Virus record (IMG/VR): IMGVR_UViG_3300044988_000193
Span: 1-28,634 of that record
Reading direction: 5' to 3' (one strand)
Source: a virus
DNA: 28,634 nt
Shown here piece after piece: positions 5,868 to 22,189 of the stretch (positions are counted from its first letter, which is position 1; each line of letters opens with the position of its first letter). The notes beneath the pieces were generated by a model. It made no database searches, was not told the origin of the DNA, and was given only the letters and a program-made list of their open reading frames with translations. A program made the position numbers and the translations under genes.

Positions 5868-6290
5868 ATGGAAACATTGTATCGATATTACGCATATACC
5901 CTAATAGATATAACCGAAACTAATGTACTAACACAGTCAGCAGAACAGCAGAAGCAACGCAATCAACAACGTAATTGGGAAACAATAAACCAGTTGTTAA
6001 GTTTGCGAGCACAGTTAATGGAATTTAATTATCTATCTGTGGTCACTGATGATGTGGCTAACTATTCATTTGGTATTAACTATACGGGTCTGCATAAAAT
6101 TTGGTCATTTGACTTTGCGGTTGAACGAGAAGATGTCTATGCATTTAACCATGATAGGTATGGTATACTCAAAGACGATTTTAAAATTGCACCTATTATA
6201 CTTGGATTAGACGAAACAGCCAAACCACCACTACCGTTATTCTACGCCAGCGGTGTAGATAAAAATATCTATTTTAAAACACGCAGTTAA
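5868..6290 (+). CDS. Conserved T4-like phage protein, probable virion component
   Basis: This 140-residue protein begins METLYRYYAYTLIDITETNVL and contains QRNWETINQLLSLRAQ. I recognise this as a conserved small protein of T4-like marine phages ('YTLIDIT...QRNWET' block), usually listed as virion-associated or hypothetical. The second half has YDRYGILKDDFKIAPII-type beta segments and no catalytic motif. The ATG lies 5 bases after a perfect late promoter, with no Shine-Dalgarno sequence possible in the transcript, so translation may be leaderless. The function is unknown. Confidence 0.75.
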   Translation: METLYRYYAYTLIDITETNVLTQSAEQQKQRNQQRNWETINQLLSLRAQLMEFNYLSVVTDDVANYSFGINYTGLHKIWSFDFAVEREDVYAFNHDRYGILKDDFKIAPIILGLDETAKPPLPLFYASGVDKNIYFKTRS

Positions 6291-8492: not shown

Positions 8493-8500
8493 TATAAATA
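8493..8500 (+). promoter_or_regulatory. Perfect T4 late promoter TATAAATA before iscU
   Basis: An exact late consensus lies 36 bases before the iscU start, in a 66-base gap after the structural gene pair. It implies that IscU is made late in infection. Confidence 0.75.
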
Positions 8501-8502
8501 GT

Positions 8503-8522
8503 ATAGTATATTAGTATACTAT
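8503..8522 (+). other. Inverted repeat / 5' leader hairpin before iscU
   Basis: ATAGTATA (8503-8510) and TATACTAT (8515-8522) pair perfectly around a 4-base loop, TTAG. The hairpin sits just after the late promoter and 4 bases before the AGGAGAG ribosome binding site, so it would be at or near the 5' end of the transcript. It is all A/T apart from one G/C pair, so it is weak. It could be an mRNA stabiliser, an operator or chance. Confidence 0.45.
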
Positions 8523-8536
8523 TATAGGAGAGTATT

Positions 8537-8911
8537 ATGGCATATTCAACTGCTGTGTTAGATCACTACGAAAATCCTAGAAATGTTGGTAAACTCGACG
8601 CCGCTGCATCAGACGTTGGCACCGGCATGGTAGGAGCTCCGGCCTGCGGTGATGTAATGAAGTTGCAAATACAAGTAGAAGATGGTATAATAATAGATGC
8701 AAAGTTTAAAACCTATGGTTGTGGCAGTGCAATTGCTAGTTCTAGTCTAGTAACAGAACTGCTTAAAGGTATGACTCTAGATGAAGCATCTGCAATTAAA
8801 AATTCAGCAATAGCAGAAGAACTTGCATTACCTCCAGTAAAGATTCACTGTAGTGTACTGGCAGAAGATGCTATTAAATCAGCAATAGAAGATTATAGGA
8901 AAAAACAATAG
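8537..8911 (+). CDS. iscU: IscU-type iron-sulfur cluster assembly scaffold
   Basis: The 124-residue product matches bacterial IscU in length and motifs. It has the start YSTAVLDHYENPRNVG, the cluster ligands C37 (in PACGD, with D39), C62 (in YGCGSAIASSS) and C105 (in KIHCS). It also has LPPVK at 98-102, the site bound by the HscA chaperone in bacterial IscU. All residues needed for cluster assembly are present, so it should work with host IscS, HscA/HscB and ferredoxin. It is the first gene after a perfect late promoter and has an AGGAGAG ribosome binding site. A DUF1289-type gene follows with a one-base overlap. Phage-borne IscU is an auxiliary metabolic gene; its codon and base use look like those of its neighbours. 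Confidence 0.95.
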   Translation: MAYSTAVLDHYENPRNVGKLDAAASDVGTGMVGAPACGDVMKLQIQVEDGIIIDAKFKTYGCGSAIASSSLVTELLKGMTLDEASAIKNSAIAEELALPPVKIHCSVLAEDAIKSAIEDYRKKQ

Positions 8912-9218
8912 TGAAAGAAGTCGAAGTCCATGTATTGGTGTTTGTCAATTAATTGACGAAGTGTGTCGCGGCTGCGGTAGAACAACAGAAGAAGTAAAAT
9001 GGATTCGATTCGAAGATGTGATGTCTATAGATAAAATAATTGTTCATTATTTAAATATATCCAGTGATTTAGTAGTACCTATCAGTCAATCACTTATATG
9101 GCAAGATACTGACAGACCTTCTAAAGATTGGTTTTATGATAAGATTAGCAAATTCCCTAATGCTGTGGCATGGATCGAAAATCATATCGATTCGCAAATC
9201 ACAGTACAGACTATATAG
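8911..9218 (+). CDS. DUF1289-type Cys-rich protein with extra C-terminal domain; start region out of frame
   Basis: The frame ending at 9218 reads RSPCIGVCQLIDEV, then CRGCGRTTEEVKWI (bases 8922-9005), which is the DUF1289 signature (SPCxxVC ... CxGCgRT). It is open back to 8889 but has no ATG, GTG or TTG upstream of that motif. The expected start, GTG 8911, overlaps the iscU stop and follows AGGA at 8897-8900, but is in a different frame. One extra A near 8914-8916 would give V-K-R-S-R-S-P-C. So there is either a one-base deletion (real or sequencing), a -1 slip, or a non-standard start; GTG 8961 would cut the motif. About 70 residues of unknown type follow the Cys motif, longer than typical DUF1289 proteins. 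A metal or Fe-S role is inferred from the iscU neighbour. Confidence 0.6.
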
Positions 9219-19547: not shown

Positions 19548-19748
19548 CTATCCGCCAAACTTTAATAAAAACATTGTAGCCCACTGTTCATCTTCAATTT
19601 CGATAATTCTATCATTATTGAAATACCACCATCCATATCCACCTGTTTGGTTATGCAGAACATACTTACGTTCTCCTACGTTTTGTTCTAACCATGTAAC
19701 CCGGTCTTGAATATTTCCGTAACTTAAATGTCTTATGCTAATCTTCAT
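19548..19748 (-). CDS. Early operon small protein, 'ATxFxL[RK]W' family (member E)
   Basis: The 66-residue protein contains VTWLEQNVGERKYVLHNQ, then a Gly/Trp/Tyr-rich turn (GGYGWWYFNNDRI), and ends IEIEDEQWATMFLLKFGG. It is the shortest version of the cluster's fold and shares W-x-EQ-x-[IV]-G with member B. It overlaps the methyltransferase gene by ATGA. The function is unknown. Confidence 0.7.
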   Translation of the reverse strand: MKISIRHLSYGNIQDRVTWLEQNVGERKYVLHNQTGGYGWWYFNNDRIIEIEDEQWATMFLLKFGG

Positions 19749-20863
19749 TTAGTAAAAACGTAGACGCCCTCAAACTTTTCACGCCCAGCAGTCTTATCGT
19801 TTCCTACCCCTGGGCGAGTATTAAGCATCATCTTAATCGTACCTGAATGTTTAAAGCCTAACTTCTCAGCAGTAGCAATCCAACGTTCGCATACAAAGTA
19901 TTCTTTATTACCATATGACTTGTAGTCTGCAATGTTGGTAGCAAATACACCATCACTGTTTAGGCCTTTGTGTATATTTTTCATAGTAGGCACAACATAG
20001 CCCTCAAACCATTCATCTAATGTGGTATAACGAACCATGCACTGTGTTGGTTCATCACTATACTTCTCTAAGTTAAAGTATGGTGGACTACTAAATGCTA
20101 AGTCAATATCCTCAGGTTCATATTCTTCACTAACTGCCTGTGTGATCAAACCCCTGTTACCAACTGCCTGTTCTATTAACTCGCTCAGGTATGTTAAGTG
20201 CTTGACTGTTTCTGTGTTAGGGTCAATACATTGGTAGTTATAACGCATGTTACTAGTTGTTATACCCAGCATGCGTCCGCCATAGCCCGCACTGTAGTCA
20301 TAGACATTGCCCCATAGTACAGGGCATAAGTGTTCTACGATAGCACGTGCATTTAGACTCTTAAAGTTCTGTACATTCTCACCTGTGACTAACTCCAAAG
20401 CACGACGCAGTGCAGTTGGGCTAACTAGATTGTTACCTTCTCTGTATTCAAAGCATAAATTGATAGCACGACGTAATTTTGCATCATTTAAGAAACGATC
20501 TTTAAGACTATTACTGCCACGACCTTTGGGTTCAGCAGTCATCATATTTGGGAACAAGAATCTATTAATACCCTGTCCTTGATTGTTGCCTAAGTTGATA
20601 ACATTATTCTTAACACTATTTGTAACAGTCTCAGACAAATCTTTAATAGCAGCTATTAATCCTTCTTCTGTGTAATAAACAATCGGCGTAATGTTAATGC
20701 TACGATAGATGTCAAACACCTGCTGTACCGTTGCTTCTGGATCTTTAAGATACTGTTCTTTTGTATAGGTGTCTAATTTATCCTGCACTGATTCGTAGCA
20801 GGTAAACTGCGGTTGAGTTGCGTACTTCGCCACTCCCCAAATATTATGTAAATTATCTATCAT
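19745..20863 (-). CDS. DNA methyltransferase (N6-adenine or N4-cytosine type)
   Basis: The 372-residue protein has the AdoMet-binding motif I, DYSAGYGGR, at about 189-197 and the catalytic motif IV, SSPPYFNL, at about 258-265. Its end (GREKFEGVYVFTK) is usual for phage methyltransferases. The S-P-P-Y motif marks an amino-methyltransferase acting on adenine N6 or cytosine N4. The 180 residues before motif I probably form the target-recognition or helper domain. No restriction partner lies nearby, so it is probably used to protect phage DNA or to regulate. It sits within the early operon and overlaps the radical SAM gene by 11 bases. Confidence 0.85.
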   Translation of the reverse strand: MIDNLHNIWGVAKYATQPQFTCYESVQDKLDTYTKEQYLKDPEATVQQVFDIYRSINITPIVYYTEEGLIAAIKDLSETVTNSVKNNVINLGNNQGQGINRFLFPNMMTAEPKGRGSNSLKDRFLNDAKLRRAINLCFEYREGNNLVSPTALRRALELVTGENVQNFKSLNARAIVEHLCPVLWGNVYDYSAGYGGRMLGITTSNMRYNYQCIDPNTETVKHLTYLSELIEQAVGNRGLITQAVSEEYEPEDIDLAFSSPPYFNLEKYSDEPTQCMVRYTTLDEWFEGYVVPTMKNIHKGLNSDGVFATNIADYKSYGNKEYFVCERWIATAEKLGFKHSGTIKMMLNTRPGVGNDKTAGREKFEGVYVFTK

Positions 20864-21989
20864 TTAAACTGTTCTTATATAATTCTACAAATGTAGTTTC
20901 CCAATTTGTATTTCTAATTTTATCAAGACTGGCTAGATAATCCATCCAGTCGTTGTTTGGTTCTATCTTAGATGAAACATAATTTCTCAATGATGTGACC
21001 CAGTAAAATTTATCAGTGTTAAGTAATGCTAGCTCATCTAGATATGATTGTCTTAAATGTGCACCGGCATATTTAATATCTAATTCTCCATTTACTGTAT
21101 GTACGTGGAATTGTGTAGCGACATCAAAATTAGCTATATTAATACTACACCAATCAATACATTCGCGCAGGCCAAAGATATTATGAAGACCAACGGTGTA
21201 GGCTACATTAATTTTAAGATTAGGTAAACAATTATTCAATTTGATAATATTATTACTTACTTGTTCCCATACTAACGGATTTCTAATATATTCAAACTGT
21301 TCGTTTATACCATCGATACTAAATGACAACGTAACTTCTTTGGCAGTACTCCATAATTGTAACACATCATTGGTAGGATAGCAAGATCCGTTTGTATTGT
21401 ATGATATAGTTACTTCATTGATATTTTGTAATTGTGTTAATACAGAAACATGGTCATTTGTTAAAAGCGGCTCTCCGCCATTGAAGTAAATGTTTTTAAT
21501 ATGGGCTAATTCTAACCCAGTAAGTTGATTCTGTTGTTTATCTATATCGATAATTGTTTCTATACTATCGAATTCTAATAATCGTGCATCGTGAATCCAT
21601 GCACTAGAAAAATGTGGTCCACAAATAATACATTTGGCATTGCATATTGGTAATGTATTATATTCTAAACTTATTAATTTAGGAACATCGGGGGTTTGGT
21701 CAATTTGATTATTTCTATAATAATCTATAGCTACTTGTCGTTTACTTTCGCCACCTATATCTTCAAGAGTCCAACAACTTTGACATTGTGGAGCACGTTG
21801 TCCACTAAGTGATAAATCTCTAATTAAATTAAGATGTTCATTTTGTATAAAATCAATAGGTTGATTTGATACCTTATCTTTTGTAGCAATACAGCACGGA
21901 GATAGTTGATAATACTCATCGCGAGTTCTCTCAACGTAGACACCATGAAAAATCAATGGACAATATGTTTTTGAATTTATATCTATCAT
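20853..21989 (-). CDS. Radical SAM protein with extra Cys clusters (twitch/SPASM-like)
   Basis: The start at 21989 (MIDINSKTYC) is set by an ATGA overlap, giving 378 residues. The radical SAM motif is C-N-A-K-C-I-I-C-G-P, with the usual YFNGGEPLL (Gly-Gly-Glu motif) after it and TLSFSIDG further on. The N-terminal part contains more cysteines (YCPLIFHGV, SPCCIATK, QCQSCW), which would hold an auxiliary Fe-S cluster. Similar 'twitch-domain' radical SAM proteins occur in T4-like marine phages without known substrate. It could act on a host or phage peptide, or a base. The need for Fe-S clusters is notable beside phage IscU. Confidence 0.88.
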   Translation of the reverse strand: MIDINSKTYCPLIFHGVYVERTRDEYYQLSPCCIATKDKVSNQPIDFIQNEHLNLIRDLSLSGQRAPQCQSCWTLEDIGGESKRQVAIDYYRNNQIDQTPDVPKLISLEYNTLPICNAKCIICGPHFSSAWIHDARLLEFDSIETIIDIDKQQNQLTGLELAHIKNIYFNGGEPLLTNDHVSVLTQLQNINEVTISYNTNGSCYPTNDVLQLWSTAKEVTLSFSIDGINEQFEYIRNPLVWEQVSNNIIKLNNCLPNLKINVAYTVGLHNIFGLRECIDWCSINIANFDVATQFHVHTVNGELDIKYAGAHLRQSYLDELALLNTDKFYWVTSLRNYVSSKIEPNNDWMDYLASLDKIRNTNWETTFVELYKNSLNDR

Positions 21990-22189
21990 GCCCACCTCAA
22001 AGCAAACATTGTAGCCTGCATAGGATCTCTAAAATTAAATTCAATTGTACTCCATCTACTATTAGCGTACCACTCACGCAGATCACTGGGTAATTTAAAT
22101 GTGTCAACACACCATTTATATTCTGCAAGTTGAGTCAGGTCACTGTCAACTGCATGTTGCTGTCTAGATAATTGTATGCGTGTGTACAT
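21986..22189 (-). CDS. Early operon small protein, 'ATxFxL[RK]W' family (member H)
   Basis: The start at 22189 (MYTRIQLSRQQHAV) follows from a TAATG overlap, giving 67 residues; the longer frame starting at 22261 overlaps the preceding gene too far. It ends STIEFNFRDPMQATMFALRWA, the clearest copy of the family motif. The rest is helical with a WCVDTFKLPSDLREWYA segment. The function is unknown. Confidence 0.72.
   Translation of the reverse strand: MYTRIQLSRQQHAVDSDLTQLAEYKWCVDTFKLPSDLREWYANSRWSTIEFNFRDPMQATMFALRWA

Follow-up and report, generated by a model that had tools for sequence, protein, structure and literature searches.

The locus examined here raises the question of why a T4-like phage should carry its own gene for an Fe-S cluster scaffold, and whether this gene, iscU, forms a late two-gene unit with the DUF1289-type sequence next to it. 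It lies in the window, which is the whole stretch of DNA that was analysed (28,634 nt of virus record IMGVR_UViG_3300044988_000193, a metagenomic contig). The answer that I consider quite likely is that the window holds a late iscU of a phage lineage within a reduced iscU-DUF1289-iscA unit, and that the iscU gene of sister phages is home to a cassette of endonuclease and ribosomal bypass.

The uninterrupted iscU gene of the window

The first-pass annotation had assigned the window to a T4-like phage, which was borne out by T4-type replication and nucleotide genes together with late promoters; the genes included a DnaB-like helicase (phrog_19, E=2e-73), the large subunit and small chain of ribonucleotide reductase, and glutaredoxin. 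The 28,634-nt fragment yielded no T4-type gene for capsid or terminase. The Kyanoviridae phage C48C1 likewise has iscU near a helicase gene. Elsewhere in the window, a minus-strand protein (19745-20863) showed weak similarity to phage DNA methyltransferases (phrog_498) and no Pfam match, and adjoins a minus-strand radical SAM gene (20853-21995). Contig L002 equals the window over ~10 kb, apart from one single change and nine changes within 76 nt (window 6161-6236, inside the frame at 5868-6290) that may represent recombination or a hypervariable patch.

The encoded IscU is complete, as had been claimed: it matched the NifU_N profile with E=5e-50, its closest solved relative was the IscU-type scaffold 1q48 (E=4e-59), and the functional residues were all present (C37, D39, C62, LPPVK at 98-102, H104 and C105). 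Judging from these residues, the protein is predicted to bind and transfer clusters; it would probably cooperate with IscS and HscA/HscB of the host, and the clusters would go to phage Fe-S proteins. A different role, in which phage IscU would serve less to provide clusters than to draw sulfur away from tRNA thiolation at IscS, is improbable. This idea draws on a lambda screen in which plaques were larger when iscU, hscA or hscB was missing, a result attributed to IscU and TusA competing at IscS (PMC2900299), but host IscU hurt lambda in that screen, so that extra IscU would be costly, and most relatives pair iscU with iscA, which fits cluster delivery. A tree had been suggested for identifying the host donor and was run: the nearest cellular IscU sequences, gamma- and beta-proteobacterial, were up to 84% identical, and a recent host donor was rejected, with none nameable, because cell sequences grouped apart from nearly all phage genes on the tree.

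An exact T4 late promoter had also been proposed upstream of iscU. The octamer TATAAATA was indeed found there, although alone it is no evidence of a promoter because its 4 copies in the window compare with 4.9 expected by chance. What makes a late promoter of iscU credible is its conserved position, as a TAAATA core was found no more than 70 nt from the start of iscU in 46 of the 50 unsplit relatives that have DUF1289, but in only 7.8% of background windows. With the promoter conserved, it is plausible that a T4-like phage expresses an Fe-S scaffold late and that, as had been suggested, it supplements Fe-S assembly at that stage, although the general idea is not new (PMC5332604). An inverted repeat, TAGTATAG..TATACTA (window 8502-8524), lies between the late promoter and the ribosome binding site of iscU, and TAGTAT..ATACTA-like repeats occur at the equivalent place in many relatives.

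The iscU gene of the window had no insert (GCC TGC GGT GAT GTA ATG, uninterrupted), no Shine-Dalgarno-like (SD-like) tract and no stable hairpin, and represents, to judge from its sequence, an uninvaded allele with an empty site. Its features are collected in Table 1.

Table 1. Positions of the features of the iscU locus within the window
Feature	Position	Strand	Basis or remark
Candidate T4-type late promoter core TATAAATA	8493..8500	+	sequence; core kept upstream of iscU in relatives
Ribosome binding site AGGAGAG of iscU	8526..8532	+	sequence; GGAG at equivalent place in relatives
iscU, 124-aa Fe-S scaffold, uninterrupted allele	8537..8911	+	NifU_N, 1q48, phrog_8429
Codons Cys37-Gly38-Asp39 (TGC GGT GAT)	8645..8653	+	empty insertion site between 8650 and 8651
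GTG overlapping iscU stop	8911..8913	+	DUF1289 start in relatives; out of frame with motif here
1-nt deletion site (GAAAG to GAAG)	8923..8925	+	versus relatives; identical in all eight population contigs
DUF1289 motif and orphan C-terminal extension, no usual start codon	8925..9218	+	PF06945; open from 8889

A damaged DUF1289 copy and the phage iscU-DUF1289-iscA unit

The first-pass annotation had described an intact DUF1289-type gene joined to iscU, and this part of its reading failed. The Cys4 motif (SPCIGVC..CRGCGRT) was recognised by PF06945 (E=3e-9, 37.1 bits against a cut-off of 27), with a match that covers only profile positions 1-31 of 47, and its frame (8889-9218) offers no ATG, GTG or TTG before the motif. 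In the closest relatives, the start codon of DUF1289 is an ATG or GTG that overlaps the stop of iscU; the GTG found there in the window encodes only MKEVEVHVLVFVN before a stop. Aligned with four relatives (L255, L228, L232 and L236), the window copy has one base fewer after the GTG start; relative to its closest relatives it also has a 12-nt deletion near the conserved Trp, and its C-terminus was found only within its own phage population. The 1-nt deletion is shared by all eight contigs of this population, the window included, and is thus not a random sequencing error; the window copy is probably a decaying gene. Continued production from a rare start (ATT 8892 or ATA 8895) or by recoding seems doubtful, though it deserves some weight: the frame is open over 97 codons starting at the SPC motif and has lost none of its four Cys, but the start codon of the relatives is one base out of register, and the additional 12-nt deletion and the orphan C-terminus also count against a product. 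Fusion of DUF1289 to IscU via slippage on the A-run at the iscU end was rejected, since the relatives have separate overlapping genes with ATG or GTG starts.

Whether the adjacency of iscU and DUF1289 recurs in phages and hosts had been raised as a question, and it was found to recur on the phage side alone: iscU lay directly upstream of DUF1289 in 73 of 80 phage contigs found by a DUF1289 profile (its query derived from iscU-adjacent loci and hence biased toward such loci), whereas none of 80 cellular loci had DUF1289 within 4 kb of iscU. The order iscU-DUF1289-iscA, usually with overlapping ends, was seen in 60 of 78 classified phage loci. Since DUF1289 is absent near the 80 cellular iscU genes and yet encoded somewhere in eight of the nine cellular genomes checked, the unit was probably assembled in phages. 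No A-type carrier gene (iscA) was found in the contigs of the window population, fragments of up to 44 kb; with iscA not found and DUF1289 frameshifted, the window locus reads as a reduced form of this common phage unit. The unit has the IscU sequence and the order iscU-iscA in common with the bacterial isc operon (iscRSUA-hscBA-fdx), but 80 phage iscU loci showed IscS in one (L035) and no IscR, HscA, HscB or Fdx. 'Acinetobacter phage MD-2021a' (CAKLQH020000011.1, L260) was discarded as a phage relative; it has a complete iscR-iscS-iscU-iscA-hscB-hscA-fdx operon and looks bacterial.

Phage IscU as such is already known. IscU and A-type carriers were found encoded in T4-like viral genomes that also have genes for radical SAM proteins and glutaredoxin, and that paper already contains the idea that the former serve the latter (Nishimura 2017, PMC5332604); HMO-2011-type phages carry iscU and erpA (PMC9038755). 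The phages studied here resemble them in IscU family and in having radical SAM and glutaredoxin genes in the genome, while DUF1289 between iscU and iscA, DUF1289 damage and split iscU alleles are not mentioned in the available parts of the two papers.

A natural reading of the phage unit is that DUF1289 passes clusters from IscU to IscA or to targets. In line with the suggestion that its place beside IscU may hint at its role, the phage unit with iscA offers a genomic hint to DUF1289 as an accessory of Fe-S transfer; in the open literature searched, the family is named by only four papers. An AlphaFold model of a phage member reached a pLDDT of 78, and no convincing PDB match was obtained by fold or sequence. 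In the Roseobacter phages CRP-207 (L262:2501-2647) and CRP-9 (L264:2501-2635), an unannotated DUF1289 frame just follows ribonucleotide reductase, and in CRP-207 glutaredoxin comes next. In another phage, whose iscU is split, a 224-aa gene with no Pfam match lies between DUF1289 and iscA (L346:2049-2723).

Split iscU alleles in related phages

A first clue to the split alleles was that several phage DUF1289 neighbours had iscU in two frames, with an insert exactly between the codons for Gly38 and Asp39. IMG/VR was scanned with a pattern of TGC-GG, any 2-12 nt and Gly-Asp-Val-Met-[KR]-Leu-Gln, which returned 91 stretches and, with the earlier ones, 103 loci, all of them iscU; these counts include repeats of one contig, the distinct split genes numbering 49 (strict) or 63, all on metagenomic contigs, and the scan patterns required TGC for Cys37, so that TGT alleles were missed. 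The insert was absent from 274 gammaproteobacterial genomes, and no Rfam intron match pointing to a self-splicing intron was obtained for split loci from seven sources. No report of the insert or of a bypass element in iscU was found in the open-access literature searched.

The first codon after Gly38 was a stop (TGA, TAA or TAG) in 101 of the 103 loci and AGG in the remaining two (L474 and L478). Each insert consisted of 1-7 nt followed by a second Gly codon, giving total lengths of 4, 6, 7, 8, 9 or 10 nt, and because these fall in all three frames, a ribosomal hop from Gly to Gly is the sole rule that restores every copy. Take-off and landing codons were identical in 18 of the 49 distinct genes and belonged to the same tRNA class in 26 of 49; the many other landings, which pair at only two of three bases, weigh against a hop. 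Ordinary frameshifting or stop readthrough, differing by insert class, would find weak or slow A-site codons in UGA-C and the rare AGG, and the 6- and 9-nt inserts are in frame. This explanation is nevertheless slightly less probable than the sulfur diversion considered above, as close relatives would have to use +1 shifts, -1 shifts and readthrough at a single site, the residues added next to the active-site Cys would vary, and the constant second Gly codon before Asp39 would be left unexplained.

The split genes also carry the marks of functional genes. Functional residues were all kept in 49 of 49 distinct split genes, the split copy was the sole iscU in each of 24 large contigs (18-367 kb), and both parts are under purifying selection (median dN/dS of 0.07 for the C part and 0.19 for the N part). 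An intein sits at the ligand Cys62 of one split iscU (L489:2194-3540, minus strand; frame ..KTYGC-FVGNTYVNT..GSHN-CGSAIA..), which argues that the second frame is expressed because an intein makes little sense in an unexpressed one. A stop and a frame change normally mean inactivation, and the split copies might accordingly be pseudogenes or assembly errors, but this is very improbable given their recovery from many different metagenomes, the purifying selection on both parts, the stop after Gly38 in nearly every locus, a covarying hairpin, and the intein kept in the second frame of L489. The 367-kb contig with a split iscU also carries an Rfam freshwater-2 RNA (RF02980; L397:7870-7946, minus strand).

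Signals in the RNA distinguish split from unsplit genes. The 60 nt before the take-off Gly codon had a mean folding z of -3.6 in split and -0.1 in unsplit genes, the stronger fold arising via different synonymous codon choice. All unique split flanks form one stem-loop, with a 5' arm at -41 to -31 and a 3' arm at -13 to -3, which ends on the first base of the take-off codon. Two of its core pairs covary while always remaining paired (AU/CG/GC/UA and UA/CG/GC/GU), and the covariation score of 0.229 compares with 0.094 for shuffled alignments (reached in 0/500) and a maximum of 0.071 when the structure was slid. All ten core pairs were present in 49 of 49 split but only 1 of 109 unsplit genes, and an AAGGAG-type, SD-like tract at about -54 to -45 in 47 of 49 against 1 of 109. 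The one unsplit gene with all ten pairs (L031) has an otherwise split-like flank and branches within the split genes in the tree, which suggests a revertant, and the single unsplit gene that has the tract (L228) resembles a recombinant. Since the RNA model R1 includes IscU coding sequence, cellular iscU genes score with it as well; stem pairing is possible there by chance, and the cellular matches inspected had neither insert nor SD-like tract. On the 3' side of the hop site, no RNA structure beyond chance was found.

Endonuclease insertions do split phage genes into pieces that reassemble (PMC2988022), and split iscU could by analogy with NrdA/MobE of phage Aeh1 yield two polypeptides, residues 1-38 and an internally started C-terminal piece. 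An ATG overlaps the stop in the GGA-TGA classes (GGATGA) and is in frame in the 8-nt class, but it is out of frame in the 7-nt class, and the GGT-taac, GGT-tag and GGC-tgac classes have none. A start at Met41 would moreover leave Asp39 and Val40 untranslated. In a second scan, which did not require Gly-Asp-Val before Met41, every iscU hit still had Gly-Asp-Val with synonymous changes, so that Asp39 and Val40 are evidently under protein-level selection in split genes. The hairpin and tract, too, are located before the stop. This makes two reassembling polypeptides unlikely, if the least unlikely of the alternatives to a hop, and bypass is what I infer for split iscU.

The split alleles appear to be mobile. 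A putative HNH endonuclease frame of one family, recognised by eye from an HNH-like motif and without a Pfam match, lies directly upstream of iscU in 47 of the 63 distinct split loci, and its end adjoins or overlaps the start of iscU; no such gene was found upstream in the other 16, and a weak match was seen in 2 of 109 unsplit loci. In L474, a 5' half of iscU cut by a stop at Cys37 is followed by the endonuclease and then by another 5' half, a recoded one that has the tract, the hairpin and the hop site, an arrangement that seems to preserve the insertion event like a fossil. Codons 20-38 of split genes had a median distance of 0.00 to the nearest split and 0.19 to the nearest unsplit gene, while the 3' parts of the split genes differ by about 19%. 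On the tree, the split or unsplit state changes 7-9 times and the insert class 24 times.

Sister phage L255 is 93% identical to the window over kilobases. The two do not differ by a single letter in the promoter and the initial 50-60 nt of iscU; beyond this point, L255 has the tract, the hairpin and GGA-tgaca-GGC. It has no endonuclease upstream of its split iscU, so the insert can apparently spread by gene conversion alone. Two further loci have a frame with a Zn-finger and a Vsr-like endonuclease after the hop site (L382:3581-4354; L418, about 275-1066 nt after Cys37); iscU breaks off at ELALPP in L382, and the Vsr-like frame is a second mobile element at iscU.

Relation to known bypass systems

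It is quite likely, in my assessment, that iscU hosts a second widespread family of homing endonuclease and ribosomal bypass cassettes, gained repeatedly between Cys37-Gly38 and Asp39, whose gap measures only 1-7 nt and whose signals are a covarying 5' hairpin and an SD-like tract, a short-gap counterpart of T4 gene 60. By sequence, the cassette comprises the upstream HNH-type gene and a recoded 5' part of iscU ending in Gly38, a stop, a few nucleotides and the second Gly codon. The ribosome would reach Gly38 with the stop in its A site, the 5' hairpin and the SD-like tract may then act on the mRNA, and peptidyl-tRNA-Gly would release and re-pair with the next Gly codon, with translation resuming at Asp39. 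The hop would restore IscU, and the insert would shield the DNA of its carrier from the putative endonuclease.

This scheme has a precedent in T4, where a homing endonuclease split the topoisomerase gene and the bypassed 50-nt insert may protect against cleavage (PMC5009743; PMC2988022). As in T4 mobA/gene 60, an HNH gene adjoins the gene with the bypassed insert, a stop follows the Gly take-off codon and landing is on Gly, and both systems have a 5' stem-loop, an SD-like element and an insert thought to block cutting (PMC5009743). They differ in the gene that is split, in the gap (1-7 nt against 50 nt in gene 60), in the iscU landing codon, which often deviates in its third base, and in the many independent variants; bypass, established for gene 60, is predicted from sequence for split iscU. 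The Byp elements of Magnusiomyces mitochondria are likewise short inserts in coding genes that ribosomes skip (PMC5009743), but they are mitochondrial, longer and spread over many genes. The iscU cassette, as set out above, pairs its insert with a putative endonuclease. Byp elements are not known to have an endonuclease partner.

The case for programmed ribosomal bypassing has so far come mainly from T4 gene 60 and a single group of mitochondria; that short-gap counterparts exist, with matched codons, has long been presumed (PMC5009743). Split iscU would, if true, be the short-gap counterpart of gene 60 that had been expected, though not found, in the recoding field, and its dozens of natural variants in gap, stop and covarying hairpin make the rules of bypass testable in E. 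coli reporters. It further suggests that mobile DNA has resorted to the combination of endonuclease and bypass repeatedly, and that T4 is no isolated curiosity.
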